Virus record (IMG/VR): IMGVR_UViG_3300037115_000244
Coordinates: 1 to 42,249 of that record
Length of the DNA: 42,249 nt
Origin: a virus
Direction: 5' to 3' (one strand)
Part shown: positions 16,907 through 38,113 of the stretch, piece by piece
How the letters are laid out: each line of letters starts with the position of its first letter
Position numbering within the stretch: the first letter of the stretch is position 1
Made by a program: the position numbers and the translations under genes
Notes under the pieces: model-generated
The model's database searches: none
What the model saw: only the letters and a program-made list of their open reading frames with translations
What the model was told of the DNA's origin: nothing

Positions 16907-18390
16907 GTGGAGCGACGGGTAAGATCCGCGAGTGGAGAGCTGACCCGGTGCAGTTTGTGCGGGAATGCCTCCACGCTGAACCTGATCCGTGGCAGCTCGA
17001 CGTGCTGACCATGGCCGGCAAGCCTGGACGCAAGCGCATCGCCATGAAGGCCTGCGCGGGACCTGGTAAGACGGCTGTGCTCGCGTGGGTCGGCTGGCAC
17101 CGTCTGGCGTGCTTCGCGAGCAGGAATGAGCATCCCAAGGGCGCGGCGGTATCGACTACAGGGATCAACCTGCACGATAACCTGTGGGCGGAGATGTCGC
17201 GGTGGCAGAACGAGTCGCCGTTCCTGCTGAAGGCGTTTACGTGGTCGTCGCAGCGGATTGTGGCGAACGATCACCCGGAGACATGGTTTCTCTCCGCGAA
17301 GTCATGGGCCAAGGCTGCGAATGAGGAGACGATTGGACGCACGCTCAGCGGCATGCACTCCAAGTACCCGTTCTACCTGATCGATGAGAGCGGCGACATT
17401 CCGCCGAACATGGTGAAGAGCGCCGAGCAGGGATTGACGAGCTGCGAGGATGGCCTGATCATCACGGCTGGCAACACTACCAGCCAGACCGGGCTGCTTT
17501 ACGAGGTCACCACACGCGCCCGGGCAGAGTGGGACATCGTGTCCATCACCGCAGATCCCGACGATCCCAGGCGCACGCCACGCGTCGACATTGAATGGGC
17601 GCGCGCTCAGATCGCGTTGTATGGCCGCGAGAATCCCTGGGTGATGGCGTACATCCTCGGGCAGTTCCCGCCGGGCTCGATCAACGCGCTGCTGAGCGTG
17701 GAAGAGGTTGAGGCGGCGATGGAGCTCCACCCACGTCTCGAGGAGTTCACCTGGGCGCAGAAACGCCTGGGTGTGGACGTGGCGCGGTTCGGTGACGATA
17801 GGACGGTCATCTTCCCGCGGCAAGGCATCGTTTCCTTCAAGCCGACGATCATGCGTCATGTCCGCGACTCCGCAGCCAGCGTCGACATCGGCAACCGGGT
17901 GATGGCACGCCGCAACGAGTGGATGCGCGATGGATCACCGTACGAGATGGACGACGTCCTGAGCTTCTTCGATGACACGGTGGGATGGGCGCACGGCGCG
18001 ATCGACTTCATGCGTGCTTCTGGACTGAGCCCCTACGCCATCCGCTTCGACAATAAGCAGACCAGCGACGACCGGTACTACAACATGCGCTGCGAGATGT
18101 GGATGAAGATGGCGGACTGGGTCAAGGCTGGAGGCAGCCTGCCGCCGATCCCCGAGCTGGTTGCCGAGCTGACCAGCCCTACCTACGCGTTCAAAGAGGG
18201 CAAGTTCATCATCGAGAGCAAAGAGCAGATCAAGAAGCGCCTGGGCCGCAGCCCGGACCTTGCCGACGCACTGGCGTTGACCTTCTCGATCCCTGATGCA
18301 CCCGCAGGGATGCGCAAGAACGCCAATGGAACGATGGGTTGGGGCGCGCCGAAGAAAGTGCAGGAGTATGACCCGTACGCACAGGTCTGA
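16903..18390 (+). CDS. Terminase large subunit (495 aa)
   Basis: Packaging motor ATPase-nuclease. Walker A is A50-C-A-G-P-G-K56-T57. Walker B with catalytic Glu is Y-L-I-D-E-S at about 158-163. The nuclease domain begins G-V-D292-V-A-R-F-G-D-D-R-T and includes a later acidic residue in S-P-D-L-A-D-A-L-A. It couples ATP hydrolysis to DNA entry through the portal and cuts the concatemer. GTG 16903 is chosen: it has GGAAGG about 10 bases upstream and overlaps the preceding stop; ATG 16873 is in frame but has no ribosome site. Its stop codon forms the first bases of the repeated late element at 18388. Confidence 0.95.
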   Translation: MSGATGKIREWRADPVQFVRECLHAEPDPWQLDVLTMAGKPGRKRIAMKACAGPGKTAVLAWVGWHRLACFASRNEHPKGAAVSTTGINLHDNLWAEMSRWQNESPFLLKAFTWSSQRIVANDHPETWFLSAKSWAKAANEETIGRTLSGMHSKYPFYLIDESGDIPPNMVKSAEQGLTSCEDGLIITAGNTTSQTGLLYEVTTRARAEWDIVSITADPDDPRRTPRVDIEWARAQIALYGRENPWVMAYILGQFPPGSINALLSVEEVEAAMELHPRLEEFTWAQKRLGVDVARFGDDRTVIFPRQGIVSFKPTIMRHVRDSAASVDIGNRVMARRNEWMRDGSPYEMDDVLSFFDDTVGWAHGAIDFMRASGLSPYAIRFDNKQTSDDRYYNMRCEMWMKMADWVKAGGSLPPIPELVAELTSPTYAFKEGKFIIESKEQIKKRLGRSPDLADALALTFSIPDAPAGMRKNANGTMGWGAPKKVQEYDPYAQV

Positions 18391-18420
18391 TACACATAAC
18401 CCGCCGCATGGCTCCGTAAG
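18388..18420 (+). promoter_or_regulatory. Late repeated element, copy A
   Basis: TGATACACATAACCCGC (18388-18404) is identical over 17 bases to copy B at 22221, and its TACACATAACC core recurs at 38085 (copy C). The conserved part continues loosely to CCGTAAG. It lies 38 bases before the GTG at 18429. Extended -10-like TGATACACAT and an ATGACC at about -35 distance are present in this copy only, so a promoter is possible but not proved. Confidence 0.6.
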
Positions 18421-18428
18421 CTCAGAGC

Positions 18429-18893
18429 GTGATCAGCAGCGCGATAATCCGGCGTGTAAGCTACCGGGATGTTCTCGGCGATCGAGCCGCCATGCAGCTG
18501 GTCGAAGCCTACGCCGCCGAGTGCTCCGTCCCTTCGGTTGGCATGATCAACCCGGAAGTAGATATGTACTCCGCGCTGGAGCAAGCGGGCGTGTCGCGTT
18601 GCTTCGGCGTGTTTGCGGCTGACGTCATGGTGGGATTCTCCAACGTGCTGCACACCATCCTTCCTCACTACAGCCGAAAGGTTGCGGTGGTGGAGAGCAT
18701 CTTTTTGGGCAAGGATCAAAGACCTGGCGGCTCGGGTCTAGATCTCATGGAAGCCATTGAGAACGATGCGCGGGAATCCGGCTGCGTCGCCATCCTCTAC
18801 AGCGCGCCGGTGGAGAGCCGGTTTGCCCGTCTCCTGGCGGTTCGTCCTCAATACGTCGGCACAAGCATGGTCTATTGCAGGAGTTTGGCATGA
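18429..18893 (+). CDS. GNAT-family acetyltransferase (154 aa)
   Basis: Fold pattern of a GCN5-related N-acetyltransferase: F-G-V-F-A-A-D-V-M-V-G-F-S-N (beta4), V-A-V-V-E-S-I-F-L (beta4/5), then G-K-D-Q-R-P-G-G-S-G-L-D-L-M in the acetyl-CoA loop position, then A-I-L-Y-S-A-P. It would transfer an acetyl group to a small molecule or protein amine; the target is unknown. GTG start, directly after the repeated element at 18388. It lies between terminase and portal, where phage morons or virion-modifying enzymes sometimes sit. Confidence 0.75.
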   Translation: MISSAIIRRVSYRDVLGDRAAMQLVEAYAAECSVPSVGMINPEVDMYSALEQAGVSRCFGVFAADVMVGFSNVLHTILPHYSRKVAVVESIFLGKDQRPGGSGLDLMEAIENDARESGCVAILYSAPVESRFARLLAVRPQYVGTSMVYCRSLA

Positions 18894-19351
18894 GTGACGC
18901 TCTCGCGCCGGTCGCAACGATGGCACCGATCTCCACGGACATGCTCGCAAGGGTACGGGAGATCGAGGCCGTCTGGCTCAAGATGCCGCAAGAGACGATT
19001 ACGACGCAGCACGTCTTCCACGCCGGGCTCTATGCTCGCACGGTACGCATAAAGGGTGACCAGTTCATTTCCAGCGTGATGATCAAACGGCCCACCGTCG
19101 TGATCATTCACGGCAGCGTCCTGGCTCTTGTCAATGAGGGATGGATCCGTCTCGACGGCTACAACGTCGTTCCCGCCGCGGCGGGTCGCAAGACCATCTT
19201 CGCGGCGCTCAGCGATACCGAGTTCACGATGGTGTTTCCCAGCTCCGCCACCACGATCGGAGAGGCCGAGCGCGAGTTTACGGATGAGACCGACCTTCTC
19301 ATGTCGCATCAGCCCGTCAACCCCAACCTTGTGACAGCCACAGGAGAGTGA
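18890..19351 (+). CDS. Cupin-like phage protein (153 aa)
   Basis: ATGA overlap with the acetyltransferase. Residues about 40-125 show the cupin double-stranded beta-helix rhythm: H-V-F-H-A-G-L-Y-A-R-T-V, G-D-Q-F-I-S-S-V-M-I, V-V-I-I-H-G-S-V-L-A-L-V, P-A-A-A-G-R-K-T-I-F-A-A-L. Similar proteins occur in phages near portal genes. The conserved metal-binding His/Glu set is only partly visible, so binding or enzymatic function is open. Confidence 0.65.
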   Translation: MSDALAPVATMAPISTDMLARVREIEAVWLKMPQETITTQHVFHAGLYARTVRIKGDQFISSVMIKRPTVVIIHGSVLALVNEGWIRLDGYNVVPAAAGRKTIFAALSDTEFTMVFPSSATTIGEAEREFTDETDLLMSHQPVNPNLVTATGE

Positions 19352-19352
19352 C

Positions 19353-19610
19353 ATGAGCAACATGGCCAAGCTGGTCGTCTTCAAGTCGGAGTCCGAGCTG
19401 CATGACCGCGCCGGCAACTATCCGTGCCTGGTGACCTTTGACCCGTTCAAGCGCACCGGCGTCTATGACGATGGCTGCGGGCATACGTCCGATGTGACCT
19501 TCGCGGTTGCCGCGAACTCGGCCGAGCTCAAGAACCTTCCAGCTGGACCGTGGGACATCATCGAGCTGAGCGACGCGGCGACCCTCACTGATCTTTTCGC
19601 AAAGGAGTAA
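19353..19610 (+). CDS. Hypothetical phage protein (85 aa)
   Basis: Unknown small alpha/beta-looking protein with one C-G-H site. The ATG follows an AGGAGAG site and is one base after the previous stop. Tight packing with the cupin and next gene supports it. Confidence 0.6.
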   Translation: MSNMAKLVVFKSESELHDRAGNYPCLVTFDPFKRTGVYDDGCGHTSDVTFAVAANSAELKNLPAGPWDIIELSDAATLTDLFAKE

Positions 19611-19612
19611 CC

Positions 19613-19957
19613 ATGTCCGGAGCAGCCCTATTGATCTCGGGAATCGCGGCAGGAGTCGGTGCCCTCGGCGTCGGCGTAAGCGCGTACGACGGTTCAAAGT
19701 CCTCCGCGAACCAGAAGCAGTCCCTCATACAGCAAACGACGGCGACGCAGACGGCTGAAGGCAACGCTCTCTCCACGGAGCGCAAGAACGCCGTAGCCGC
19801 GAACATGGCGACACAGCAGACGCCCGATGTCTCCACGATCATGGCCCAGGCTGCGCAGGCGGCCAAGTCGGGCATTGGATCCACCATGCTCACGGGTCCA
19901 GGGGGTGTGGGTACCGGTACCCTCGGCGGCGGAAGCGGAACACTGCTCGGAAAGTAG
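19613..19957 (+). CDS. Small phage protein with N-terminal hydrophobic segment (114 aa)
   Basis: AGGAGTAACC precedes the ATG. Residues 4-24 (A-A-L-L-I-S-G-I-A-A-G-V-G-A-L-G-V-G-V) could cross a membrane; the rest is Gln/Ala/Thr then Gly-rich. The character resembles the small ejection or internal proteins of podoviruses. It lies directly before the portal gene. Function unknown. Confidence 0.55.
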   Translation: MSGAALLISGIAAGVGALGVGVSAYDGSKSSANQKQSLIQQTTATQTAEGNALSTERKNAVAANMATQQTPDVSTIMAQAAQAAKSGIGSTMLTGPGGVGTGTLGGGSGTLLGK

Positions 19958-19964
19958 GACAGCG

Positions 19965-21668
19965 ATGGCAACGAATCCGGATCTTCGCGAGAAACTGCTC
20001 CGCCGGTGGGGAGCACTCAAGACCGAGCGCTCCTCATTCTGGACTCACTGGCAGGAGATCACCACCTACGTCATGCCGTGGAATGGTCGCTACTTCCTTC
20101 AGGACCGCAACAAGGGACGGCGCAGGGCCAACGCGATCTATGACAACACCGGCATTCGTGCGCTGCGCACCCTCGGCGCCGGTCTGATGTCTGGCGCGAC
20201 CAGCCCAGCGCGTCCGTGGTTTCGTCTGGGCGTTCCTGATCCCGATCTCAACGCCTACCAGCCCGTTCGGGTATGGCTGGATGGCATTACCACGCGGATG
20301 CATCAAGTGTTTCAGAAGTCCAACACCTACCGCGCATTGCAGCAAGTCTATGAGGAGATGGGCGCGTTCGGCACCGGTGCGAGCATCATCCTTCCCGACT
20401 TCAACAGCGTGATCCATCACTACCCGCTGACCGTGGGTGAGTATGCGATTGCGACGGACGCGCAGGGGAAGGTCTGCACCCTCTATCGCGAGTTCGAAAT
20501 GACGGTCTCGAGCATGGTCAAAGAGTTTGGCAAGGACAACTGCTCGCCTACCGTTCAATCGCTCTACGACGGCGGCACTGGACTCGATCAGTGGATCCCC
20601 GTAATCCACGCCATCGAGCCACGCGCTGACCGCGACCCGAGCAAGGCTGACAGCAAGAACATGGCCTGGGGCTCGTACTACTTCGAGTCTGGTCAAGGTG
20701 ATGGGAGGATGCTGCGTGAGAGCGGCTTCAAGACGTTCCCCGCCATCTGCCCGCGCTGGTCGATTGCCGGCGGCGACATCTACGGTAACTCTCCGGGCAT
20801 GGAAGCGCTTGGAGACATCAAGCAGCTTCAGCATGAGCAGCTCCGTAAAGCTAACGCCATCGACTACCAGACCAACCCACCGCTGCAGGTACCGACAGCG
20901 ATGAAGAACAACGAGATCAACCGCCTTCCGGGTGGTGTTACCTATTACGACGGTACAGCGGCCGCTCCGATAAAGAACGCGTTCGAAGTGAACCTCAACC
21001 TGCAATACATGCTGTCCGACATTCAGGATTGCCGCAACCGCATCCAGCAGTCGTTCTTCTCGGACGTCTTCATGATGCTGGCGAACTCGACCAACCCTCA
21101 GATGACCGCAACCGAGGTCGCAGAGCGGCAGGAAGAGAAGATGCTGATGATGGGGCCGGTGCTCGAGCGCATCAACAATGAAGCGCTGCAGCCCCTTGTC
21201 GAGACCACGTTCAACCACATGATGGAAGCTGGCATGATTCCACCGCCTCCTCCTGAGATGCAAGGTCAGACGCTCAACATCGAATTTATCGGCATCCTCG
21301 CGCAAGCCCAGAAGGCCATCGCAACCAACAGCGTTGATCGATTCGTCCAGAGCATGGGAACGGTCGCGGCGCTGAAGCCCGAAGTGCTGGACAACTTCAA
21401 CCCTGATGCATGGGTGACGACCTACAGCGACATGATGGGCATTGACGCCAAGCTCATCGTTCCCATGGACCAGGTGCAGGCAATGCGCCAAGCGAAAGCC
21501 AAGGCGCAGGCGGCACAGGCGCAGGCCGCGGCAGCTCAGCAGCAGTCACAGACGGCCAAGAACCTCGCGCAGTCTCCTACAGGGCCCGGTAACCAGAACG
21601 CCCTCAACGATCTCATGAATCAATACAGCGGGTACGGGTCGCCGAGTCCGCAGGAGGTACCGCAATAA
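19965..21668 (+). CDS. Portal (head-to-tail connector) protein (567 aa)
   Basis: Matches the podovirus head-tail connector family (Pfam PF12236, from memory). Visible family blocks: L-R-R-W-G-A-L-K-T-E-R-S-S-F-W-T-H-W-Q-E-I, L-G-A-G-L-M-S-G-A-T-S-P-A-R-P-W-F, E-M-G-A-F-G-T-G-A, G-G-D-I-Y-G-N-S-P-G-M-E-A-L-G-D, A-T-E-V-A-E-R-Q-E-E-K. It forms the dodecameric ring through which DNA is packed and ejected. The C-terminal 80 residues are Ala/Gln-rich helix (the 'barrel') and then disordered. ATG 19965 begins the conserved part; earlier frame is inside the previous gene. Confidence 0.95.
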   Translation: MATNPDLREKLLRRWGALKTERSSFWTHWQEITTYVMPWNGRYFLQDRNKGRRRANAIYDNTGIRALRTLGAGLMSGATSPARPWFRLGVPDPDLNAYQPVRVWLDGITTRMHQVFQKSNTYRALQQVYEEMGAFGTGASIILPDFNSVIHHYPLTVGEYAIATDAQGKVCTLYREFEMTVSSMVKEFGKDNCSPTVQSLYDGGTGLDQWIPVIHAIEPRADRDPSKADSKNMAWGSYYFESGQGDGRMLRESGFKTFPAICPRWSIAGGDIYGNSPGMEALGDIKQLQHEQLRKANAIDYQTNPPLQVPTAMKNNEINRLPGGVTYYDGTAAAPIKNAFEVNLNLQYMLSDIQDCRNRIQQSFFSDVFMMLANSTNPQMTATEVAERQEEKMLMMGPVLERINNEALQPLVETTFNHMMEAGMIPPPPPEMQGQTLNIEFIGILAQAQKAIATNSVDRFVQSMGTVAALKPEVLDNFNPDAWVTTYSDMMGIDAKLIVPMDQVQAMRQAKAKAQAAQAQAAAAQQQSQTAKNLAQSPTGPGNQNALNDLMNQYSGYGSPSPQEVPQ

Positions 21669-21982
21669 TGGCACTCACCGACATGAAGATGAGCAAGAAA
21701 GAGGCGAAGGAGCAAACCGAACCCTCTCAAGACGATCTGCCCGCATACCCGTGGGGTTTGAGCCTGCACCTGGGCGATGACGAGCTCGAGAAGCTGGGCG
21801 TCGCAGACCTCAAGGCTGGCGAGGAAGTCTCGATTACCTGCAAGGCGACTGTAACCGGCTCCAACTCGCACAAAGCCCTGATCGGCGAGTCGCACAACAG
21901 CATCGACCTGCAGATCACCGAGATGTCGATCGATGGCGACGGTGGAACAGCCACCACAAAGACACTCTACGACAAGAAGTAG
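21668..21982 (+). CDS. Capsid staple-like protein (104 aa)
   Basis: Overlaps the portal stop by one base. The pattern M-A-L-T-D-M-K-M-S-K-K-E-A-K-E then P-W-G-L-S-L-H-L-G-D-D-E-L-E-K-L-G matches small phage proteins annotated as capsid staple/stabilising proteins, from memory. They are thought to bind the capsid exterior or link capsomers. The rest is beta-rich. Confidence 0.7.
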   Translation: MALTDMKMSKKEAKEQTEPSQDDLPAYPWGLSLHLGDDELEKLGVADLKAGEEVSITCKATVTGSNSHKALIGESHNSIDLQITEMSIDGDGGTATTKTLYDKK

Positions 21983-21990
21983 GAGACTCG

Positions 21991-22266
21991 ATGTTCCCTG
22001 TGTGGCGAAATACCCGCCTGCGCAAAGACCTGAAGCCTTGTGTTTTCTGTGCAGCATTTGGGCACAGTCAATCGCGCCTCACCGGCCTCATCGAAGAGTT
22101 CAGGGTCATCTGCACCAACGTGTACTGCCACGCGCAGATGGCGACACTCCCGCATGAAACAGCGGAACACGCAGAGCTGGTATGGAACGTAGCGACCAGG
22201 CAGCTCTATTCCGGGGAGTTTGATACACATAACCCGCGCAGTGACGGTCTAGCGTTGGGTCTGTGA
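21991..22266 (+). CDS. Lar-like zinc-ribbon protein (91 aa)
   Basis: L-K-P-C-V-F-C at the start and a C-x4-C (C-T-N-V-Y-C) 25 residues later, then A-E-L-V-W-N-V-A-T-R, match the shape of restriction-alleviation protein Lar and its relatives (L-x-P-C-P-F-C-G ... C ... W-N-x-R). True Lar moderates type I restriction. Here the gene is in the head operon rather than the early block, so function is uncertain. Its 3' end contains copy B of the late repeated element. Confidence 0.6.
   Translation: MFPVWRNTRLRKDLKPCVFCAAFGHSQSRLTGLIEEFRVICTNVYCHAQMATLPHETAEHAELVWNVATRQLYSGEFDTHNPRSDGLALGL
22221..22252 (+). promoter_or_regulatory. Late repeated element, copy B
   Basis: TGATACACATAACCCGC (22221-22237), identical to copy A, then GCAG and GACGGTCTAG, which resembles copy C (GCAGAGCGGTAG). 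It lies inside the 3' end of the Lar-like gene and 39 bases before the next GTG (22263), nearly the same distance as in copy A. A match of this length inside coding sequence argues for a selected signal. Confidence 0.6.
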
Positions 22267-22604
22267 GTGACGCTTACGATCCTACCGACGTCCACGCCAT
22301 TGAACTAGCGAAGGCGGATGCTGACCATCGCAAGCGCATGGCGAACGAGACCGAAGAGCTGGATCTGAAGTGGTTGATGAGCAGCAAACGTGGTCGCCGG
22401 ATCGTTTGGCGGCTCCTGGAGCAGGCTGGAGTCTTCCGGCTTTCGTTCAACACCAATGCGATGCAGATGGCGTTCAACGAAGGGAATCGGAACTTCGGCA
22501 ACCGCACCTTGAGCCAAATCCACGCGCATTGTCCTGAGTTCTACCCAGTCATGGTGAAGGAGTTTACAAATGGAACCGACGGAAACGGCCACAACCCTAA
22601 ATAG
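22263..22604 (+). CDS. Bbp19-like phage protein (113 aa)
   Basis: The block D-L-K-W-L-M-S-S-K-R-G-R-R-I-V-W-R-L-L-E-Q-A-G-V-F-R-L-S-F-N-T-N-A-M-x-M-A-F-N-E-G-N-R-N matches the Bordetella phage Bbp19 family. Position just before the scaffold and capsid genes is as in BPP-1-like phages. Function unknown, presumably head-related. GTG 22263 overlaps the previous stop. Confidence 0.8.
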   Translation: MSDAYDPTDVHAIELAKADADHRKRMANETEELDLKWLMSSKRGRRIVWRLLEQAGVFRLSFNTNAMQMAFNEGNRNFGNRTLSQIHAHCPEFYPVMVKEFTNGTDGNGHNPK

Positions 22605-23226
22605 CGCCGAGCCCACCACTCCAGTAGTGGCAGCTGCTCCTGTTGTCGTTGCTTCGCTCTTGGGCGAAACACCGGCTGCAGTAGCAACCACCGAAGCAGT
22701 CATCCCACCCGTGGCAGAAGCTCCAGCGACTCCAGCGTCCGCAGTGGCTAAACCCGAAGTGAAGGTAGAAGGCGCGCCCGAGGCGTACGCGTTCGTAGCT
22801 CCTGAAGGTAAGGTCTACGACCCGAACATCCTCTCCGCTTTCGAAGCCAGCGCCAAGGAAGCCAATCTGACGCAGGATGCGGCACAGAAGCTGCTCGACA
22901 CGATGTCTCCGAAGATTGCGGAGCGTCAGACCGAGCAAATTCTGGCAATCAACAAGGGATGGCTCGATAGCTCGACGTCCGACAAAGAGTTTGGCGGCGA
23001 CGCGCTCGATGCAAATCTGGGGATTGCGAAGAAGGCTCTCGACAAGTTCGGGTCGCCTGAACTGAGTAAGTTGCTGGGCACCACCGGTCTAGGGAACCAT
23101 CCGGAAGTTATCCGGGCGTTCTTCAGAATCGGCAAGACCATCAGCGAAGACACGTTCGTTTCCGGCGCGGCGCCGGCTGCCAGATCTACAAACGCAGCGT
23201 CCGTGCTCTACGACAACACGAAGTAA
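22570..23226 (+). CDS. Head scaffolding-like protein (218 aa)
   Basis: Ala/Pro/Val-rich disordered N-terminal third, then helical charged part (S-A-F-E-A-S-A-K-E-A-N-L-T-Q-D-A-A-Q-K-L-L-D). Acidic overall. Composition, length and position directly before the major capsid gene fit an internal scaffold that guides procapsid assembly. Overlaps the Bbp19-like gene by 35 bases, with GGAG before ATG 22570. Confidence 0.75.
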   Translation: MEPTETATTLNSAEPTTPVVAAAPVVVASLLGETPAAVATTEAVIPPVAEAPATPASAVAKPEVKVEGAPEAYAFVAPEGKVYDPNILSAFEASAKEANLTQDAAQKLLDTMSPKIAERQTEQILAINKGWLDSSTSDKEFGGDALDANLGIAKKALDKFGSPELSKLLGTTGLGNHPEVIRAFFRIGKTISEDTFVSGAAPAARSTNAASVLYDNTK

Positions 23227-23267
23227 TAACCCGCACCACGTTCTAAATCCACGAGGAGAGGTAATCC

Positions 23268-24332
23268 ATGCCTACGCTTCCGCTCAACGCAGGGCACAAC
23301 ACCCTGATTGATATCGCCAAGAGTTTCGGACCCGACGGCAAGGTTGCCGTTCTCGCCGAGCTGCTCAACCAGTCCAACGAAGTCATCTTCGACATGAACT
23401 TCATCGAGGGCAACCTTCCGACAGGCCACAAGTCCGTGGTTCGTACGAGCCTGCCCACGGTGAGTTTGCGCCAGTTCTACAAGGGCACCCCGACCAGCAA
23501 GTCTGGGCGCGCCACGATTGAGGATGTCTGCGCGATGCAGCAGGGTCGCAACGAGATCGACAAGGACCTGGCCGACCTGAACGGCAACAGCGCTGCTTTC
23601 CGTATGAGCGAGGCTCTGGGTTTCGTCGAATCCATGAATGAAACGTTCGCGCAGCAGGTCTTCTACGGCGATACGTCGCAGAACAAGGACGGCATCCTTG
23701 GCCTCACGCCACGGTATAACTCGCTCGAAGGTACCTCGGCTGGCAACATCATCAACGCCGGCGGCGCGGGAAACACCAACACGTCGGTCTGGCTGGTTGG
23801 CTGGGGCGAGAACACGGTCACCGGCTTTTATCCGAAGGGATCGAAGGCTGGGCTCACGCAGGAGGATCTGGGCGTCATCGATGCGTTCGATGCATCGAAC
23901 AACCGCTTCCGTGCCTACGGAGAATTGTGGGACTGGAAGTATGGTCTCTGCGTGAAGGATTGGCGTTACGCGGTTCGCATCGCCAACATCTCCGTGCCGG
24001 ACATGGTTGGGCAGTCCAACACTCAGGCGATCACCGCGTCCACCTGGCTCAACAAGCTGATGATTCGCGCACTCGCTCGCATCCCCTCGATGGGCATGAG
24101 CCGTTGCGCTTTCTATGCCAATCGCTCCGTTAAGGAGATGCTGAGCATCGGCGCTCTCGACAAGTCGCAAAACGCCCTCTCGTTCACCGAGGCGGTGAAT
24201 CAGTACGGATCGGTCAGCGCCGGGTCTGTGGCTGGTACCGGAACGGGCATCACTGGCGGCGTCCTGAAGTTCCTGGGCATCCCGGTGCGCACCGTCGATC
24301 AACTCCTGCTCACCGAGACCGCAGTATCGTAA
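23268..24332 (+). CDS. Major capsid protein, BPP-1-like (354 aa)
   Basis: Matches the BPP-1/Bbp17-type capsid family: T-L-I-D-I-A-K, E-L-L-N-Q-S-N-E-V-I-F-D-M-N-F-I-E-G-N-L-P-T-G-H, A-L-G-F-V-E-S-M-N-E-T-F-A-Q-Q-V-F-Y-G-D, G-I-L-G-L-T-P-R-Y-N-S, W-D-W-K-Y-G-L-x-V-K-D-W-R-Y. It should adopt the HK97 fold and form the icosahedral shell. GAGGAGAGG lies before ATG 23268. The 41-base leader starts ATAACCCGC, a partial match to the late repeated element. Confidence 0.95.
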   Translation: MPTLPLNAGHNTLIDIAKSFGPDGKVAVLAELLNQSNEVIFDMNFIEGNLPTGHKSVVRTSLPTVSLRQFYKGTPTSKSGRATIEDVCAMQQGRNEIDKDLADLNGNSAAFRMSEALGFVESMNETFAQQVFYGDTSQNKDGILGLTPRYNSLEGTSAGNIINAGGAGNTNTSVWLVGWGENTVTGFYPKGSKAGLTQEDLGVIDAFDASNNRFRAYGELWDWKYGLCVKDWRYAVRIANISVPDMVGQSNTQAITASTWLNKLMIRALARIPSMGMSRCAFYANRSVKEMLSIGALDKSQNALSFTEAVNQYGSVSAGSVAGTGTGITGGVLKFLGIPVRTVDQLLLTETAVS

Positions 24333-24357
24333 CGGACGGCAACGTAAACCTCTAACC

Positions 24358-24383
24358 GTGGGGGAGGCTAAAACCTCCTCCAC
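24358..24383 (+). other. Stem-loop after the major capsid gene
   Basis: GTGGGGGAGG (24358-24367) pairs with CCTCCTCCAC (24374-24383) with one G-U pair and a CTAAAA loop. No T-run follows, so it is more likely an mRNA end-protecting or partial-termination hairpin that keeps capsid mRNA abundant. Confidence 0.6.
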
Positions 24384-24400
24384 AGAAAAGCGAGATCAAC

Positions 24401-24835: not shown

Positions 24836-24849
24836 GAAAGTAGGCAGTG

Positions 24850-24999: not shown

Positions 25000-25023
25000 T
25001 CGTCGCCTAAGCCAATTACCAGA

Positions 25024-25752: not shown

Positions 25753-25755
25753 TCG

Positions 25756-29267: not shown

Positions 29268-31447
29268 TGCCCCAGATTCCTGATACGTTCGCGCCCAGCA
29301 CCACTCTGAGCCCCGACCCGCAGACCGCCCTCACCGCCGGCGGCGTGGATCCCATGAAGAACTTTGCTCCCCAGCAGCAGGAGCAGATGGGCGACGCGGT
29401 CAGCAAGGTCGGCAACACCATCGACAGCATTGGAGAGCGCATCCAGTGGCAGCAGGACGACGCCGCAACCAAGAATGCTGTGACCAATTTCATGCAGGGG
29501 GCGCAACAGGTCCTCAGCGGCAACGGCACGGCCCAGAATCCCGGCTACATGAACACTCGCGGACAGACGGCCATCGACGGCTACGACGGCGCCACCGCGG
29601 CCCTCGCGCAGATCAAGCAGCAGGGGCTGGATGGGCTCAGCAACAACTTCCAGAAGATGATGTACAACCGGGTGACCACGGCGCACCTTACGAACTTCGG
29701 CGCGCAGATGGCCGACCACCATTTTCAGCAGAACGCCCTCTTTTCCGCCCAGGCCTCCAGCGACAGCTCGGAGAGCTATGCGCAGGCAGCCATCGGTTCG
29801 TCCGACAGCATCGGGCAGACGGACGTGGATGGCAACAAAACAGGGAACTTCTACGCCGCCAGCGCGCAGGCCGTGCAAGAGAAGCAGCATGCCTTGTTTA
29901 TCGCCACCGGGGCCAGCCCGGACAGCCCGCAAGGCGTAGAAGCCGCCAAGCAAGTGACGACGTCCATTGCGCAGGGCGTCATCTCCAACATGCTGGACAA
30001 CCACAATTATCAGGGAGCGCAGTCGTTCTTCGATAGCGAGAACCAGCAGGGGCATCTCGACGAGCGCTCGGCCGAAGTGCTGGGCAACGCCATCAAGCGC
30101 AACACGGACACGGAGACGGTCAAGGACGTATCGAACCAGTTGATCTCCACCGCGCTGCGCACGGCGAACGGGCAGCCCACGGGCATCAATCCCCAGCTCC
30201 CCATCAAGGGCGGCTCGTACACCATGGACAAGAATGAGGATGGAAGCCAGACCTTCACCGTTCCCCAGGGCACCGCGGTCAACGCCGCGGCGGATGGCAA
30301 GGTGGACAGCGTCACCCAGGACGAGCCCGGCGGCCCGTACACGGTCGAGCTTACCCACTCGGACGGATCCACGACGCAGTACGGAAACCTCTCGGCCGTG
30401 AACTACAAGGTGGGCGATTCGGTGATGCAGGGCCAGCAGCCCATCGGTCTGACAGCCAAGGGCGGCCTGGATTTCTCCATGGCCAACGCGAAAGGCACTG
30501 CGGTCGATCCGGCAACGCAGGTGCTTCCGCCGGTGGACCTCACGAAGTTCTCCGACCCAACCATGGCGAAGACGGTCATCGACCAAATCAACAACTCCAG
30601 CTACTCGCCCGAGATGAAAGCGCAGATGGCGACGTATACCGACAGCCAGCAGAAGGTCAACTTTCGCCAGGACGCCGAGAACAAGCAGCTTACGATTCAG
30701 CCTTTGCAGGATGCCTATTACCAGTATGCCGACGCGCACAAGGGCTCGGACGGCTCGCCTACGTTCAGCACCAGCGCGCTGACCCCTTCGCAGTGGGCGA
30801 CGATCAACAGCGTCAACCCGGAACTGGCAGAGCGGCTCGAGGAGATGCCGACCACGCAAGCGAGGCAGCGGCTGGAGCAAGGGCGGCAAGATATTGAGTA
30901 CAGCCCGCAAGCAATCAATATAGAGGCTGGATTTGCGGCAGATCCCACCACCCTGACCGCTGCAGCAGTCAATGCTGCCCGACCGTATCTTCCGCCGCCC
31001 ACGTATGTGTCGCTTCTGAATCGAGCCACTGAGCTGCAGACGGCTGGCCCCAAAGGAGTACAGGACGCGACCGACCTTTCCACGCGGGTCAAGTACTTCG
31101 CCTCGAATAACGGCATCAACATTAACCCGAAGACGCCCGAGGACAAGCGCACGTACCTCGACCTGCAGTACCAGGTGCAGCGCAGCATCGACGCGATCAA
31201 GGCGCAGAATCACGGTAAAGCGACCGCCGCGCAGGTCGACCAGGCAATCCAGCAGGAGCTGATTCAGCACACGCTGACCGTCCCGCGCAGCCCGTGGAAC
31301 CCGCTGGCGATCACTGGAATCAGCCCCAACAGCAGCTCGCAGATGCGCACCTTCCAGATGCCCAGCGGTGCCACACACGTACAGGCGATGAGTGATGGCC
31401 AGATGCATTACACAGACGGAACGCATGACTTAGGACTGGTTCAATAA
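29267..31447 (+). CDS. Internal virion protein with degenerate M23-like domain (726 aa)
   Basis: Second ejection-type protein. Residues about 318-415 follow the LytM/M23 peptidase fold: V-P-Q-G-T-A-V-N-A-A-A-D-G-K-V, Y-T-V-E-L-T-H-S-D-G-S-T-T-Q-Y-G-N-L-S, K-V-G-D-S-V-M-Q-G-Q-Q-P-I-G-L-T, then G-L-D-F-S-M-A-N. The zinc ligands of active enzymes (H-x3-D and the final H-x-H in 'HLHFE') are missing, so it is probably a non-catalytic peptidoglycan-binding remnant. The rest is helical and repetitive. T7-type relatives form the channel through the cell wall for DNA entry. Confidence 0.75.
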   Translation: MPQIPDTFAPSTTLSPDPQTALTAGGVDPMKNFAPQQQEQMGDAVSKVGNTIDSIGERIQWQQDDAATKNAVTNFMQGAQQVLSGNGTAQNPGYMNTRGQTAIDGYDGATAALAQIKQQGLDGLSNNFQKMMYNRVTTAHLTNFGAQMADHHFQQNALFSAQASSDSSESYAQAAIGSSDSIGQTDVDGNKTGNFYAASAQAVQEKQHALFIATGASPDSPQGVEAAKQVTTSIAQGVISNMLDNHNYQGAQSFFDSENQQGHLDERSAEVLGNAIKRNTDTETVKDVSNQLISTALRTANGQPTGINPQLPIKGGSYTMDKNEDGSQTFTVPQGTAVNAAADGKVDSVTQDEPGGPYTVELTHSDGSTTQYGNLSAVNYKVGDSVMQGQQPIGLTAKGGLDFSMANAKGTAVDPATQVLPPVDLTKFSDPTMAKTVIDQINNSSYSPEMKAQMATYTDSQQKVNFRQDAENKQLTIQPLQDAYYQYADAHKGSDGSPTFSTSALTPSQWATINSVNPELAERLEEMPTTQARQRLEQGRQDIEYSPQAINIEAGFAADPTTLTAAAVNAARPYLPPPTYVSLLNRATELQTAGPKGVQDATDLSTRVKYFASNNGININPKTPEDKRTYLDLQYQVQRSIDAIKAQNHGKATAAQVDQAIQQELIQHTLTVPRSPWNPLAITGISPNSSSQMRTFQMPSGATHVQAMSDGQMHYTDGTHDLGLVQ

Positions 31448-34400
31448 TGGCAACGGCTCCCCTAACATTTGTCGGCGACGCGATTCCCATTGGCGATCCA
31501 GCACCATCCCCTACGGACCAGCAGGCCAGCGCGTTGCAGGGCGCGGTGGCGTATGGAGCCACGCAGAACCCGGACAAATACGCGAAGCTGCTGCAGCTCC
31601 AGCAGCGGACCGGCGTGGGTCCTGTCGTCAGTCAAGGGAACGAGGATCTGATCCAGCAGGCTGCCGACGCAAAGGCGATCAATTACCCGCAGTTTGCTAC
31701 GACGTCGCCGAGGACAACGGCGTGGGCTTCGGACCCGGGTAATGCGGCGGTCTCTGGCGTCTCTGAGATTCAACGGCTCGGCGGGATCGAGAACAACCGC
31801 AACCAGATGAGCGCGTGGAACCCCAGCACCTGGGAGACGATCAAGGACGCCGTTGCTCCGGTGCTGAGCACGGTGAAGCAAAATCTCTATGCGTACCCGC
31901 TCACGCGCATGGCGATCTCGGCGGCGGCCGGGACGATTGGAACGGCTGGCGATGTTGGCTCATTTCTTGGTTGGCACGGCAGCGGCCCGACGAAGCAGAA
32001 CCTGCTCCAGACCATTGAAAGCTCCCTGAAGCCGGAGAACGCCTTTGCGGGTGACCCCAACGTTGGGGTTGCAGACTATGCGAAGAGCACGGGGATGGAC
32101 CAGGTGGCTCCGCTGCTGGCTTCGATGGCGGTGGGCATGGGAGAAGCGAGCGCGGTGGGGTGGGCTGCGCGGACGTTCGGATGGACCGAGAACGCGGCCA
32201 AGGTGGCGACAGCGCTGTCGGTGGGCGTAACCTTCTCGGCCCAGCAGGGCGGCGCTGCCTACACCTCGGCGGCTGGAACGGGCGCGAGCGACGACGCGGC
32301 ACGGCTGGCGGCCAACCGGATCTTCGGCATCAACCTGCCCGGCAACACGCTGGCGGGATTCGCGGACATGATTCCGGGGCTCAATAAGTCTCCGCTCCTG
32401 GCGTCGGTCGGCACGGGTGCGCTCATGGGAGGCTCCGCCAAGGTTGGGAGCAACATCGTGACCGGCCAGCCATGGAGCCAGGGCGCTCTGCTGGCGGCTG
32501 GGCAAGCCGCGGCGATCCAGGGCGGCATGCACCTGGGCATGAGCACGTTTGGGGGGAACCTCAGCGAGGCGGTGGACGCTGCGGCGGATTCGCCGCTCAA
32601 GGCGCGCTCTCCAGAGAAGTTTCACGAGGCGTTGCAGGGCATCTTCGGGGATGATCCGAGCCTGCGTATCCCGGTCGACGCGTTCAACTCCTACTTCTCC
32701 GGACAGAAGATGGATCCGCAGGCCGTGGCATCCGATCTTGGATCCACCAACTATGCCGAGGCGCACATGGCCGGTGGCGACGTGGAAGTGCCGACGGCCA
32801 ACTTCCTCTCCAATCTCGACCCCGAGCATCAGAAGGCGCTGCTCCCGGACATCATCGACCCAGCGAGCAACTTGACTGGCCGCCAGTTTGAGCAGGGACG
32901 CCAGGAGCTTGCTGACTGGGAAGCCAACGGCGGGACGCAGAAGACGCAGGCGGATATGGTGGCGGCCGACGCGGAGACGGCATCCAGTCCTGAATACACC
33001 CAGGTGAAAGAGGACCTGAACCAGCGCTACGTGGCGGCCGGCGAGACTCCCGAGGTCGCGGAGACACTGGCGACAAAAGATGCCAACGTGTACACCAACA
33101 TGGCGCGCGAGGCTGGCATGAAGCCGAGCGAGCTGCTGAGCCTCTACAACCCCAAGGTGGTGCTGGGCGCACGGCCAGAGGAGATTGGAGCCGAGGGCAG
33201 CCCCGACCGGCGCACGGACACGCAGCAGCGCCAAAGCATCGATCAGATGACTCCGGAGCAGATGCGCGCAGCTCTTCTGACGAGCGAGAAGACGGGGCTG
33301 CCGAATAAGCGCGCCTTCGATGACGCCCAGCAGCAACAGCCAGCCTCAGCGGTGGCGATGAGCGACGCCGACGGGCTGAAGGCCCTGAACGACAAGTTTG
33401 GGTATGACGCGGGCGACGCCCTGCTGAAGGCGAAGGCCGATTCATTGCGCGAGGCAGGCGTGGAAGCCTACCATGACAAGGGCGATGAGTTTCTGTATCG
33501 CGGAGACTCCCCGGAGGATCTGAGCGGCAAGCTCGACCAGGCACGCGAGATCCTGCGCAAGCGCGTCATCGAAACCACCACAAAGGATGGGGTGGTACAC
33601 CAGTTCAAAGGAGCGGATTTCAGCTATGGCACAGGAAAAGACACCACCGAAGCCGAAGCCGGACTCAAGCAGCACAAGTCCGAAAGGGAAGCCAGCGGAG
33701 AAAGAGCCCGTGGGGAGCTTCGCGGAATTTCTCAAGTTGGATCCGAAGACGCTAACGAACATCAGGGTGTTGCCAGCGGAGAAGGAACCGGTCAAGTAGC
33801 TTCGGACGTCCTGCACCAGTCCTCCGAAGAGGGTACTCGTGGATGGTTCCGCACCCTCCCTGACGGTTCCTTCGAGATTGGCAAGACGAAGATCGGCGAT
33901 CTGTCGACGTTCGTCCATGAGCCTGCGCACTCCTACCTGTTCATGCTGCGCGACCTTGCGGGCCGTGAGGGCTCCAGCGACACACTGAAGGGCGATTACG
34001 CGAAGGTGCTCGACTTCCTCGGAGCCAAGGACGGCGAACCGCTCACCACCGAGCAGCATGAGAAGTGGGCGGAGGCCAACGAGCAGTATCTCCGCGACGG
34101 AAAAGCTCCCAGCCCAAGCCTCAAGGGAACGTTTCTGCGCTTCGCCGTCTGGCTGGGGCATGTCTACAACAAAGCCATCGCCGCCGGCGTGGAGCTATCG
34201 CCGGAGATCCGCGGCGTCTTCGACCGCATGTACGCCGCCGAGGATGGCGTGAACCGCGCAGCGACCGAAGCTGGCCCGCAACTCTTCAAGACGCCCGAGG
34301 AGGCTGGCTGGACGGAGGAGCAGTTCAAGAACTACGCCGAGATGAAGGGGATGAGCGTGGAGCAGGCGAAGTCCGATATCCTCGGCAAGCTGAACGAGGC

Positions 34401-37400
34401 CGCGGTGCGCGACCGCTCGGACGCGTGGCGGGAGGAAGAGAAGAACGTTCGCCAGGGTGTGACCGATACCGTCGACGCGCAGCCGGAGTACAGGGCGATC
34501 CGCAACCTGCGCAAGGGCGAGCTCGAGGACGGCACCCCGCTGACCCTGAATAAGGATGCGCTCGTGCAGCGGTTCGGAGAGGACCGCGTGAAGGCGCTGC
34601 AGGAGCAGCATCCCGGCCTGTATCGGACCGAGGGAGGCACGGACGCAGAGACGGCGGCCGAGATCCACGGCTTCGGCTCTGGCGAGGAGATGATGCGGGC
34701 GATGGAGGCTGCGCCGCGGCGCAGTGTGGCCATTGACACGGCCACGCGAGACTTTATGACGGCCACGCATGGCGACATCCGCTACGATGGCAGCCTGCAG
34801 GATGAGTCTGATGTCGCTCTCATGAACGATCAGCGCGCCGAGAGCCTGCACAAGGAACTTGACGCCCTCAACCGCAGGAACACGCCAGAGTTTGAACTAC
34901 GAAACGCCGAGCGGGAGCTGAAGAACTACCTCAGGGAGCAAACGGAGAACGGCAAGCAGGAGACACGGATCGAGAAGCGGGACCAGCGCATCGAGGATCT
35001 GAAGAGCAAGATCTCCACGCTACAGGAGGCGGCAAAGCAGCGGACGCGGGAAGAGAGGGCGGGCAAGCGCATCGCCCGCGATGTCGCTCCCATCGCAGCC
35101 TACCGCGAGGCCGCGCAGAATATGGTGCAGGCGAAGTCGATCGTTGACCTTCAGCCGACGCGCTACCTCGACGCCAGCCGGAAGTACTCCACCGAGGCGT
35201 TTGAGGCGCTGGCGAAGGGTGACTACGAGGGCGCGCAGCAGGCTAAGCACAAGGAGCTGCTGAACCACTTCCTGTTCCGCGAGGCGCAGACGGAGAAGAC
35301 GTTCGTCACCAAGCAATTCGAGCCCTTCGTGAAACGCGTGCAGAGCAAGCTGGCGCAGCAGAACCTGGGCAAGGCAGGCCTCGAGTACCGGGCGCAGTTC
35401 AACAAGCTGCTGGCGCGGTACGAGATTGCCTTCGTTCCCCGCAGCGAGGCTCCGGAGGGCACGTTGGCGCAATGGGCAAGCGACCAGTACGACATGGGCA
35501 AAGAGCCCGCCATCGACGCGGCGATCTACAACGAGATGCGGACGGCCAGCTATCGCACCATTCCGCTGAGCGAGCTGCACCAGGTGCACGATGCGCTGCA
35601 AAACATCCGGGCGCTGGCCAATCAAGAGCTGCACATGATGGTGAACGGGCGCAGGGTGGATTTCGCCGAAGCGACCGCCAGCATGATCAGCCGGGCGCAC
35701 GAATCGCTGAAGTCGGCTCCTACGCGGGTGCTGGAACGCAACGCGACCGTGGGCGAGAAGGCTTCCGACCTGGTCGACCGAGGGAACGCCCTGCTGATGC
35801 GGACGGAGTTCCTGATGAAGCGGCTGGACGGCGGCACGGCGGGGCCGTGGCATGACAACCTGTGGAACCTGGCCTCCGACGCTCAAGGCAAAGAGCACGC
35901 GCTGCAGGCCGACGTTACGCAGAGGCTCGCCGACTCCTTCCAGGCGATGACCAAAGAGCAGCGCTTGAGCATGCTCAAAAAGGTGACGATCGACGGGATT
36001 ACGGAGCCGATCACCCGGCATGACCTGGTGTCGATGGCCATGAACATGGGCAACGATGGCAACTTCGACCGGCTGACTAAGACCTTCGAGGCGCATGGAT
36101 GGAACCCGGAGGCGCTCGAGCAGGTGCATGGCGCGCTGACCCGCGAAGAGTGGCAGCACGTGCAGAACGTGTGGGACCTGCTGAAGCCGCTGGGTGCGCA
36201 CATGAACGAGATGGAGAAGCGCCTGACCGGAGTTCCACCAGCCATGGTGACGCCTACGCCATTCCGGGTGGAGTTCCCGGATGGAACCGGAATGGACCTG
36301 GACGGCGGCTACTACCCGATCATGATGGACCCGAAGTTCTCGAAGCTCGGAGCCACGGCAGACGCCGGCATGTCCGCGCAGAACCTGATGGAGAGTGGCT
36401 ACGGCCGCGCCGAGACCTCGAAGGGCTACACCAAGGGGCGCACCGGCTACGGCGGCCCGCTGCTGCTGGACTACGAGCAGGTGCTGACCCAGCACACCGC
36501 GAAGGTGATCAAGGACATCACCCACCGGGAGTTCATGCTGACGGCGAACAAGCTGCTGATGAATCAGGACGTCCGCAACACGCTGCGCTCCACGCTCGGC
36601 GCCGGCTACGAAGAAAAGATGATGCCCTGGCTGCGGACGATCATCAACGACCGCAACGGCAGCGCGGTGCAGGGCCTCGGCGACGTCTCGCGGGTGATGC
36701 GGACGCTGCGCACCAACATCGTGAAGGCGGCACTCAGCTTCAAGGCTTCCACGATCCTGCTCCAGACCACGCATGCCTCCAGCATGTTCACCTACACGTC
36801 GCCGAGCTCCTACGCGCAGTCGATGATCGACTTCATGGCGCATCCGCAGGCGATGTCGGAGCAGATTCGCGGCCTGTCGCCGAACGAGATGGCATTCCGC
36901 GGGGAGAATATCGACCGCGACCTCCGGACCCTGATCCAGACCGAGACGGGGCAGAAAGGAATTGGCCACGTCATTGCGAGGGCCGGGATGATGCCGGTGC
37001 AACTGATGGATCACATCATGAGCTTCCCACTCTGGCTGTCGGTCTACCGGGACGCGTTGACCTCGAACGTTGGGCTGGCGGAAGGTGAGGCGAAGTATGC
37101 GGCCATGCACAAGGCCGATGCCGCGGTGCGGATGGGCCTGGGCTCCAACGCCCCCAAGGATCTGCCGCCCATCATGCGCAACAACGACTTCACGAAGATC
37201 ATCACCACGCTGGGCGGCTTCGCGAACCTGAAGTTCAACCAGATGAGCGACCAGGTGAGCACCTACCGCAGCGGCGGAAGCGTCGCGAAGCTCACCTACG
37301 GCATGCTGATGGTGGCGATTATCCCGCCGATTCTGGGCCAGCTGGTGACCGGGCACGGCCCCAAGGATGGAGAGAATGTGGGCGAGTGGGCGGCCAAGAC

Positions 37401-37728
37401 GGCGCTGCTGTTCCCCGCGGAGACGATTCCGGTGCTCGGGAACATTATGCGGGGGATGGAGGGATCTGGCGACGTGAGCTTCTCCCCGCTGGAAGGGATG
37501 CTGGCGAGAGCAGGCAAGGCCGGAGCACGTGCAGCCTCGGACAGCGAGGAGAAGGATTGGCCGGGCATCGGACTCGACGCACTCCAGACCGGCATGGAGG
37601 CTTACGGAGTCACCGGAACGGACCAGGCATTCAAGACGATCCACTACGTGCGCAACGCGAGCGATGGCAAGATTGAGAACCCGAACGCGTTGAACGCGGT
37701 GGTGGGAGGACAGCCCAGCAAGCCCTAG
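31447..37728 (+). CDS. Giant internal virion protein with GGDEF-like and HExxH domains (2093 aa)
   Basis: Largest gene of the phage, last of the ejection set. Order: hydrophobic N-terminal segments (about 155-180, 215-300); GGDEF-like domain at about 600-720 (T-G-L-P-N-K-R-A-F, D-A-D-G-L-K-A-L-N-D-K-F-G-Y-D-A-G-D, D-K-G-D-E-F); a low-complexity linker (about 725-800); a metallopeptidase-like part from about 815 (S-T-F-V-H824-E-P-A-H828-S-Y-L, then K-A-P-S-P-S-L); a coiled coil at about 1135-1205; a long helical body; and a C-terminal L-G-G-F-A-N-L-K-F-N-Q-M with hydrophobic segments near 1950. This is the polyvalent-protein style of large phage virion proteins. It is probably ejected with DNA and could act in the host at once. 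Activity of either enzyme domain is unproven. Confidence 0.85.
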   Translation: MATAPLTFVGDAIPIGDPAPSPTDQQASALQGAVAYGATQNPDKYAKLLQLQQRTGVGPVVSQGNEDLIQQAADAKAINYPQFATTSPRTTAWASDPGNAAVSGVSEIQRLGGIENNRNQMSAWNPSTWETIKDAVAPVLSTVKQNLYAYPLTRMAISAAAGTIGTAGDVGSFLGWHGSGPTKQNLLQTIESSLKPENAFAGDPNVGVADYAKSTGMDQVAPLLASMAVGMGEASAVGWAARTFGWTENAAKVATALSVGVTFSAQQGGAAYTSAAGTGASDDAARLAANRIFGINLPGNTLAGFADMIPGLNKSPLLASVGTGALMGGSAKVGSNIVTGQPWSQGALLAAGQAAAIQGGMHLGMSTFGGNLSEAVDAAADSPLKARSPEKFHEALQGIFGDDPSLRIPVDAFNSYFSGQKMDPQAVASDLGSTNYAEAHMAGGDVEVPTANFLSNLDPEHQKALLPDIIDPASNLTGRQFEQGRQELADWEANGGTQKTQADMVAADAETASSPEYTQVKEDLNQRYVAAGETPEVAETLATKDANVYTNMAREAGMKPSELLSLYNPKVVLGARPEEIGAEGSPDRRTDTQQRQSIDQMTPEQMRAALLTSEKTGLPNKRAFDDAQQQQPASAVAMSDADGLKALNDKFGYDAGDALLKAKADSLREAGVEAYHDKGDEFLYRGDSPEDLSGKLDQAREILRKRVIETTTKDGVVHQFKGADFSYGTGKDTTEAEAGLKQHKSEREASGERARGELRGISQVGSEDANEHQGVASGEGTGQVASDVLHQSSEEGTRGWFRTLPDGSFEIGKTKIGDLSTFVHEPAHSYLFMLRDLAGREGSSDTLKGDYAKVLDFLGAKDGEPLTTEQHEKWAEANEQYLRDGKAPSPSLKGTFLRFAVWLGHVYNKAIAAGVELSPEIRGVFDRMYAAEDGVNRAATEAGPQLFKTPEEAGWTEEQFKNYAEMKGMSVEQAKSDILGKLNEAAVRDRSDAWREEEKNVRQGVTDTVDAQPEYRAIRNLRKGELEDGTPLTLNKDALVQRFGEDRVKALQEQHPGLYRTEGGTDAETAAEIHGFGSGEEMMRAMEAAPRRSVAIDTATRDFMTATHGDIRYDGSLQDESDVALMNDQRAESLHKELDALNRRNTPEFELRNAERELKNYLREQTENGKQETRIEKRDQRIEDLKSKISTLQEAAKQRTREERAGKRIARDVAPIAAYREAAQNMVQAKSIVDLQPTRYLDASRKYSTEAFEALAKGDYEGAQQAKHKELLNHFLFREAQTEKTFVTKQFEPFVKRVQSKLAQQNLGKAGLEYRAQFNKLLARYEIAFVPRSEAPEGTLAQWASDQYDMGKEPAIDAAIYNEMRTASYRTIPLSELHQVHDALQNIRALANQELHMMVNGRRVDFAEATASMISRAHESLKSAPTRVLERNATVGEKASDLVDRGNALLMRTEFLMKRLDGGTAGPWHDNLWNLASDAQGKEHALQADVTQRLADSFQAMTKEQRLSMLKKVTIDGITEPITRHDLVSMAMNMGNDGNFDRLTKTFEAHGWNPEALEQVHGALTREEWQHVQNVWDLLKPLGAHMNEMEKRLTGVPPAMVTPTPFRVEFPDGTGMDLDGGYYPIMMDPKFSKLGATADAGMSAQNLMESGYGRAETSKGYTKGRTGYGGPLLLDYEQVLTQHTAKVIKDITHREFMLTANKLLMNQDVRNTLRSTLGAGYEEKMMPWLRTIINDRNGSAVQGLGDVSRVMRTLRTNIVKAALSFKASTILLQTTHASSMFTYTSPSSYAQSMIDFMAHPQAMSEQIRGLSPNEMAFRGENIDRDLRTLIQTETGQKGIGHVIARAGMMPVQLMDHIMSFPLWLSVYRDALTSNVGLAEGEAKYAAMHKADAAVRMGLGSNAPKDLPPIMRNNDFTKIITTLGGFANLKFNQMSDQVSTYRSGGSVAKLTYGMLMVAIIPPILGQLVTGHGPKDGENVGEWAAKTALLFPAETIPVLGNIMRGMEGSGDVSFSPLEGMLARAGKAGARAASDSEEKDWPGIGLDALQTGMEAYGVTGTDQAFKTIHYVRNASDGKIENPNALNAVVGGQPSKP
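33626..33799 (+). CDS. Embedded 57-aa ORF in +1 frame of the giant gene
   Basis: Lies fully inside the giant gene, over its linker. It encodes a Lys/Pro/Glu-rich small protein (M-A-Q-E-K-T-P-P-K-P-K-P ... F-A-E-F-L-K-L-D-P). By my count 40 of 56 codons end in G or C (about 71 %), against 26 of 58 (about 45 %) in the giant gene's own frame here, while most of the giant gene is clearly GC-rich at third positions. An AAGGAG lies 12 bases before the ATG, which is rather far. It may be a real overlapping gene or a trace of an older reading frame. Confidence 0.3.
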   Translation: MAQEKTPPKPKPDSSSTSPKGKPAEKEPVGSFAEFLKLDPKTLTNIRVLPAEKEPVK

Positions 37729-37731
37729 CTG

Positions 37732-38034
37732 TTAGTTGTACCAGCCGGGATGCCGGAGCATGCTGACCGCCAATAGCAGGCAGTAAAGCGCGGCGATGGA
37801 AACGACGCCCAGCCCGACTTTCCTCCAGTGACAACCAAACCATCTCAGGATGAGTACCCTCTGCCAGACGAGCAGAGAGAGGACCGCGGCCGCGATGGCT
37901 AAGTTCACCAAGAGATCGGGGTTATTTTCGTAGAGGTTGTCACCCGTCTTGATGAGCAGATGGGCCAGCACGAATCCGGATGCGATGGCGACGGCTAAGC
38001 CGATCAGTGGATATTGCTTGAGTCTTTCGAGCAT
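37732..38034 (-). CDS. Three-helix membrane protein, antisense moron candidate (100 aa)
   Basis: Only convincing minus-strand gene in the structural half. Three hydrophobic segments at about residues 11-29, 42-64 and 74-92, short loops and positive inside residues. It ends 3 bases from the giant gene stop (convergent) and starts divergently from the fibre gene. Independent transcription and membrane location suggest a lysogenic-conversion or superinfection-exclusion gene; no family recognised. Confidence 0.6.
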   Translation of the reverse strand: MLERLKQYPLIGLAVAIASGFVLAHLLIKTGDNLYENNPDLLVNLAIAAAVLSLLVWQRVLILRWFGCHWRKVGLGVVSIAALYCLLLAVSMLRHPGWYN

Positions 38035-38084
38035 CGCTCACCGCTTTCTGAAAAACCTTCGATGTAACAGTACACCCTTCAGGG

Positions 38085-38113
38085 TACACATAACCAGCCG
38101 CGCAGAGCGGTAG
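38085..38113 (+). promoter_or_regulatory. Late repeated element, copy C
   Basis: TACACATAACCAGC (13 of 14 match to copies A and B) then CCGC-GCAGA-GCGG (38098-38110), a 4-bp hairpin, and TAG. It lies in the 100-base gap between the divergent membrane-protein gene and the tail-fibre gene, 50 bases before ATG 38135. ACCCT-TC-AGGGT just upstream (38074-38085) is a small inverted repeat. Confidence 0.55.

Follow-up and report, generated by a model that had tools for sequence, protein, structure and literature searches.

The stretch of DNA analysed here (the window) is a virus record of 42,249 bases carrying podovirus virion genes, with an integrase gene at its right end (41140-42249) and a tRNA-Arg (tct) gene near its left end (737-813), which may be the attachment site. 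An O-like replication initiator ORF (10335-11468) contains about six TCAGAGGACATTT-like direct repeats at 10729-10958 that look like origin iterons of the lambda-O type. No phage RNA polymerase was recognised among the scanned window proteins. The gene of a small helix-turn-helix (HTH) protein immediately precedes a probable small-terminase ORF (ATG 15611), and a short repeated sequence occurs at three sites, designated A, B and C, each ahead of a start codon (Table 1).

Table 1. Predicted promoters A, B and C, the genes that follow them and the candidate activator gene (window coordinates).
Feature	Coordinates	Strand	Remarks
Candidate activator, small helix-turn-helix protein, Bbp27 family	15349..15618	+	Modelled tri-helical HTH core
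Predicted promoter A, -35-position box TACACATAACC	18391..18401	+	Orthologous box at the same site in L004, L006, L012, L019 and BPP-1
Predicted promoter A, -10 hexamer TAAGCT (TANNNT at +26)	18417..18422	+	
First gene of block A, weakly acetyltransferase-like	18429..18893	+	phrog_1249, E 1.2e-4; predicted leaderless GTG start
Predicted promoter B, box TACACATAACC	22224..22234	+	Orthologous boxes in many relatives
Predicted promoter B, -10 hexamer TAGCGT	22250..22255	+	
phrog_528 gene, homologue of bbp19 (BPP-1)	22263..22604	+	phrog_528, E 5.5e-29; predicted leaderless
Predicted promoter C, box TACACATAACC	38085..38095	+	Same site in L059 (contig of L004), L071 (contig of L019) and BPP-1 bbp9
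Predicted promoter C, -10 hexamer TAGTTT	38111..38116	+	
Tail fibre N-terminal gene	38135..38866	+	ATG 38135 after GGAGG; short leader

The 17-mer TGATACACATAACCCGC is identical at 18388 and 22221, and GGGTACACATAACCAGC stands at 38082, giving three matches in the window at up to 3 mismatches against 0.03 expected from shuffled sequences. Its core, TACACATAACC, is present in exactly three copies (18391, 22224 and 38085) and nowhere else in the window, even with up to 2 mismatches allowed; a bare count at 2 mismatches is unremarkable, since three is reached in 44 of 100 shuffles, yet every copy here is exact. A preliminary description had reported the 17-base repeat and its core at these positions, together with distances of 38, 39 and 50 bases to the start codons at 18429, 22263 and 38135, and both observations proved right. 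The leading TGA of the 17-mer, absent in copy C and in the relatives, lies outside the element; the box of copy A starts at the base after the terminase stop codon TGA (18388-18390).

Counted from the first base of the box, each copy has a hexamer of the form TANNNT at exactly +26 (TAAGCT, TAGCGT and TAGTTT), leaving 15 bases between box and hexamer, and no TANNNT was found at any other offset from +12 to +40 of the three window boxes. TANNNT occurs at a rate of 0.0029 per window position, which rules out chance as the cause of its threefold appearance at a single offset. The TAG/TAAG that the preliminary description had noted after each copy is thus present, and corresponds to this hexamer. 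The arrangement is best explained if the repeat unit comprises a box at the -35 position plus a -10 hexamer: with the start of the hexamer placed at -12, the box covers approximately -38 to -30, the usual site of sigma region 4. The earlier proposal of an extended -10 element (TGATACACAT) is not supported, and the remark that -35 boxes are not conserved is reversed, in that the repeat itself would take the place of the -35 and the -10 would lie 15 nucleotides downstream; the suggestion of a phage-specific late promoter is strongly supported. An ordinary host sigma70 promoter, with a TTGACA-like -35 spaced 16-18 nucleotides from the -10, was not recognised: the box words are unlike TTGACA, and no consensus promoter was reported at sites A or B.

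At sites A and B, a GTG codon follows the -10 hexamer by 6 and 7 nucleotides, respectively, without a clear Shine-Dalgarno sequence, and transcription is predicted to start at or next to GTG 18429 and GTG 22263. The start codon region of the first gene of block A is kept in L006 and L004. The box at B falls within the 3' end of ORF 21991-22266, and the gene downstream is the first of the protease/capsid/tail block; the N-terminus of its product, M(S)xYDPxD, is kept in eight relatives, supporting the start codon. Copy C is located in an intergenic gap ahead of the tail fibre gene and beside a divergent gene, as the preliminary description had stated, and the PHROG tail fibre/spike profiles start at residue 6 of ORF 38120-38866, which corresponds to 38135. 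A small minus-strand gene (37732-38034) occupies the gap upstream of the predicted promoter C; in the contig of L004 the same slot (L059, beside 2099, minus strand) holds an apparently unrelated sequence, which suggests that this position beside the fibre promoter serves as a cargo slot.

Relatives, close and distant, were gathered by portal-protein searches; elements orthologous to those of the window were found at the corresponding sites (A, B and C) in L004, L006 and L019, in Bordetella phage BPP-1, DC33, ctEw122, ctQRb9 and zth2-2, and in many other IMG/VR relatives. Site A carries TACACATAACC in L006 and TATACATAAC in L004 and L012, and site B elements are also present in L006 and L004. 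On the contig of L004 a separate copy precedes the fibre gene, and because the gene across the gap appears unrelated to that of the window, it is the element, not the neighbourhood, that was kept. In L019, sites A and B share another word, GTACCCGTAACTTTT, of which site C shows a close variant, TACCCGTATCT; in the wider set, sites A and B display TGCCCGTA, TACCCGTA or TACCCATA. Clade-specific boxes across BPP-1, Limnohabitans phage DC33 and many IMG/VR relatives include TGCCCGTG, TGCCCGTA, TACCCGTA and TATACATA, with TACACATAAC as a further word among the variants, and these words change together at all sites of a genome. The exact 16-mer was found in only four stretches across viral contigs, two of them pieces of the closest relatives of the window, and the exact word is therefore clade-specific.

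In BPP-1, GGGTGCCCGTGCC lies ahead of bbp24 (A), bbp19 (B) and bbp9 (C), and TANNNT follows at +25 from the T of TGC in all three; among the seven BPP-1 boxes matching a looser pattern, these three are the only ones with TANNNT at any offset from 15 to 35. The -10 hexamer of the predicted bbp9 promoter is TAGCCT, and the BPP-1 record carries no annotation of the element. On the minus strand of BPP-1 (L147, approximately 6120-6185), copy C overlaps a hairpin resembling an intrinsic terminator (CCCCTGGGGAAG...CTTCCCCAGGGGTTTTT), so that terminator and promoter would share the gap ahead of bbp9. Phages DC33, ctEw122, ctQRb9 and zth2-2 have four sites each, all with the hexamer at +25, the fourth being located in some of them ahead of an internal-virion-protein gene. 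Caulobacter phage Jess A (L153), in which the HTH protein is present, carries GGTGCGCATGATC on the minus strand at 38559, 22485 and 2267, preceding the B and C genes and lying upstream of the small-terminase gene; this repeated variant box lacks a TANNNT at the fixed distance. The element was not found in epsilon15, Pseudomonas phage AF or phiV10.

A search of all viral contigs for the exact box followed by TANNNT and a start codon returned 41 stretches, mostly before very short ORFs; those outside the clade of the window are probably due to chance and were not retained. Three contigs of another kind (L021, L027 and L043) display TACACATAACC-N15-TAATAT and a Shine-Dalgarno sequence before a 354-aa ORF, matches that are possibly fortuitous as well.

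The offset was fixed on a first set of contigs, in which TANNNT occurs at that distance in 72 of 131 boxes, and was then assessed on contigs gathered by the HTH protein alone. Among the 143 GTRCCCGT boxes of the latter, 75 have TANNNT at +25 and one has it across the 24 other offsets from 15 to 39; many contigs are near-duplicates and the genomes are related, so these counts, like the p value given below, do not represent independent events. The hexamer stands at +26 at all sites of the window clade and at +25 in the other clades. The consensus of 102 distinct sites is [AG]GTRCCCGTA-N16-TA[CG]A[GT]T, most often then N6-[AG]TG, and every B site that has TANNNT has 6 or 7 nucleotides between the -10 and the start codon. 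Within each of the 47 contigs with two or more boxes, the variable base of the box is common to all (47/47), compared with a mean of 24 and a maximum of 38 after shuffling, a uniformity pointing to a trans-acting reader. At site A of L100 and L112-L116, the start codon lies 1-2 nucleotides after the -10 and an SD-like AGAGGA is found upstream; so short a gap is at odds with leaderless initiation from this promoter.

That a dedicated factor would be needed had been anticipated in the preliminary description; this expectation is strongly supported as well, and a candidate was found in the phage HTH protein listed in Table 1. It is the sole non-structural family in all element-bearing genomes compared, with the exception of one truncated contig. 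Among the genomes classified, the element is present in 42 of 45 HTH carriers and in 3 of 19 non-carriers (Fisher p 1.6e-9), a co-occurrence tallied by hand over related genomes, in which carriers with a box but no TANNNT, such as L072-L074 and L093, were counted as element-bearing. L118, L129 and L132, some of them fragments, have a B element with no HTH protein found; L135 has the HTH protein and no recognised element. In a whole-contig search the protein was not found in 16 records, and L011 and L014 were withdrawn as carriers: ORF clustering had linked them through a fused N-terminal region in the L019 frame, and both lack the HTH protein. Among 50,697 phage records it is encoded in only 13, all from the BPP-1/Caulobacter/DC33 group: Bordetella and Caulobacter phages, DC33, zth2-2 and two uncultured phages.

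No specific curated family matched the HTH protein; weak matches included HTH_SB, HTH_38, Sigma70_r4_2 and PHROG families of late activators and sigma factors, those to Sigma70_r4_2 being found in 7 of 22 members (best E 8.8e-4). A first, low-confidence structural model listed many region-4 structures (E of at least 0.4), which a better model did not favour, and the sigma-region-4 fold suggested by the first was not upheld by the second. A simple rule pairing an arginine of the recognition helix with guanine in the box had looked perfect by eye but does not hold throughout: KICRYQRR proteins pair with TACCC boxes, and at cluster level arginine goes with G in 5 of 6 cases and with A in 1 of 6. 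The protein is named '54S ribosomal protein' in ctQRb9 (L151 36495-36830) and 'endonuclease' in BPP-1 (NC_005357 26349-26561), names that are probably misleading; elsewhere in public records the family is labelled hypothetical.

Taken together, the repeats are probably three activator-dependent late promoters of the sigma70 type, with a box read by the HTH protein. Considered separately, it is very likely that the elements are promoters, and reasonably likely that the HTH protein is what reads the box. Host RNA polymerase with sigma70 would recognise the -10 (TANNNT), while the phage protein would read the box in place of a -35 hexamer, since the box is unlike TTGACA, and would either contact sigma region 4 or replace it. 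The polymerase would thereby be directed to three targets, namely the portal block at A, the protease/capsid/tail block at B and the tail fibre at C. At A and B the transcript would begin on the start codon or one or two bases from it at most, yielding leaderless mRNAs, and at C transcription would produce a very short leader with a Shine-Dalgarno sequence. We infer transcription, start sites, binding and activation alike from sequence comparison. A bolder and rather doubtful version is that the Bbp27-family protein is a free-standing -35 reader replacing sigma region 4 on a host RNA polymerase whose sigma70 stays at the -10, a phage 'split sigma' that launches leaderless late mRNAs and in which recognition helix and box diversified jointly among BPP-1-like phages.

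The same promoters might instead be served by another reader, such as a host alternative sigma factor or activator or a different phage protein, the HTH protein being linked to them by descent; we consider this unlikely, even though three genomes have a B element with no HTH protein detected and phages of different hosts have different box words, a pattern that a host factor might also produce. The co-occurrence described above argues against it, as does the 5.9-Mb assembly of L019, in which the element is limited to the phage contig save for one site with 2 mismatches. The box might alternatively be an operator through which the phage repressor silences late promoters in the lysogen, as annotated for the related podovirus epsilon15 (GenBank AY150271). 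The repeated sites of epsilon15 precede its terminase gene, portal block and tailspike gene, which correspond roughly to the blocks served here, and a repressor could act at the present box, since it overlaps the promoter. However, the epsilon15 sites are palindromes of 16-17 bp (ATTACC-N5-GGTAAT) also found around the repressor gene in the immunity region, whereas the present box is asymmetric, with no clear palindrome, and in BPP-1 the element occurs at three late sites only, none near cI/cro; moreover, repressor sites need no fixed phase with a -10. An operator, also raised in the preliminary description, is thus very improbable.

Two further readings appear hardly tenable. The repeat might be an RNA signal in the leader of late mRNAs (a hairpin, a processing site or a translational element), and the spacer of copy C does fold better than shuffled sequences (z -2.25). 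The GC-rich hairpin formerly ascribed to every copy is nevertheless not shared: neither copy A nor copy B surpasses shuffled sequences in folding (z +0.86 and +0.11; their spacers +0.71 and +1.06), no Rfam family other than a tRNA was found in the window, and, in contrast to the fixed distance between box and TANNNT, the spacer sequences show little conservation. Alternatively, a functionless word could have been kept by relatedness or coding constraint, as might be argued from the position of copy B within a reading frame and from the closeness of many relatives to one another; against this stand the exact offset in independently retrieved contigs, the concerted change of clade-specific words within a genome, and the persistence of the element at C despite exchange of the gene beside it.

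With regard to known systems, the predicted activator-dependent promoters resemble the T4 middle promoters, in which a MotA box near -30 replaces the -35 and the -10 is that of sigma70 (PMC6755090): as in the MotA/AsiA system, a sigma70 -10 is combined with a phage-specific box in place of the -35, the scheme needs no phage RNA polymerase, and the predicted reader is a small phage DNA-binding protein. Unlike T4, the genes are late virion genes, the box covers approximately -38 to -30 and is not centred at -30, box word and protein are unrelated as far as family scans go, some starts are predicted to be leaderless, and no AsiA-like partner was identified. The simplest reading is that the HTH protein would work like MotA, by functional analogy. 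In leaderless mRNAs, for instance those of mycobacteria, the -10 is so placed that transcription begins at an ATG or GTG start codon or right beside it, with no Shine-Dalgarno sequence (PMC4633059), and the B sites as well as A and B of the window likewise have a start codon 6-7 nucleotides after the -10 without a Shine-Dalgarno sequence; here, in contrast, a phage-specific box occupies the -35 position and the starts are predicted. A further counterpart is BPP-1 (Rauchvirus), with three orthologous elements and the HTH protein Bbp27, which differs in its box, GGGTGCCCGTGCC at offset 25 compared with TACACATAACC at offset 26 in the window.

BPP-1 is the founding phage for diversity-generating retroelements, and no description of late gene control in this phage and its relatives was found in the open-licence literature. 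Promoters with predicted starts can now be named, including one before BPP-1 bbp9, just upstream of mtd, and bbp27 and its homologues are the likely late switch. The natural variants of box and HTH protein constitute a ready-made test of protein-DNA co-evolution and possible orthogonal promoter/activator pairs, and late gene control in BPP-1-like phages becomes directly testable.
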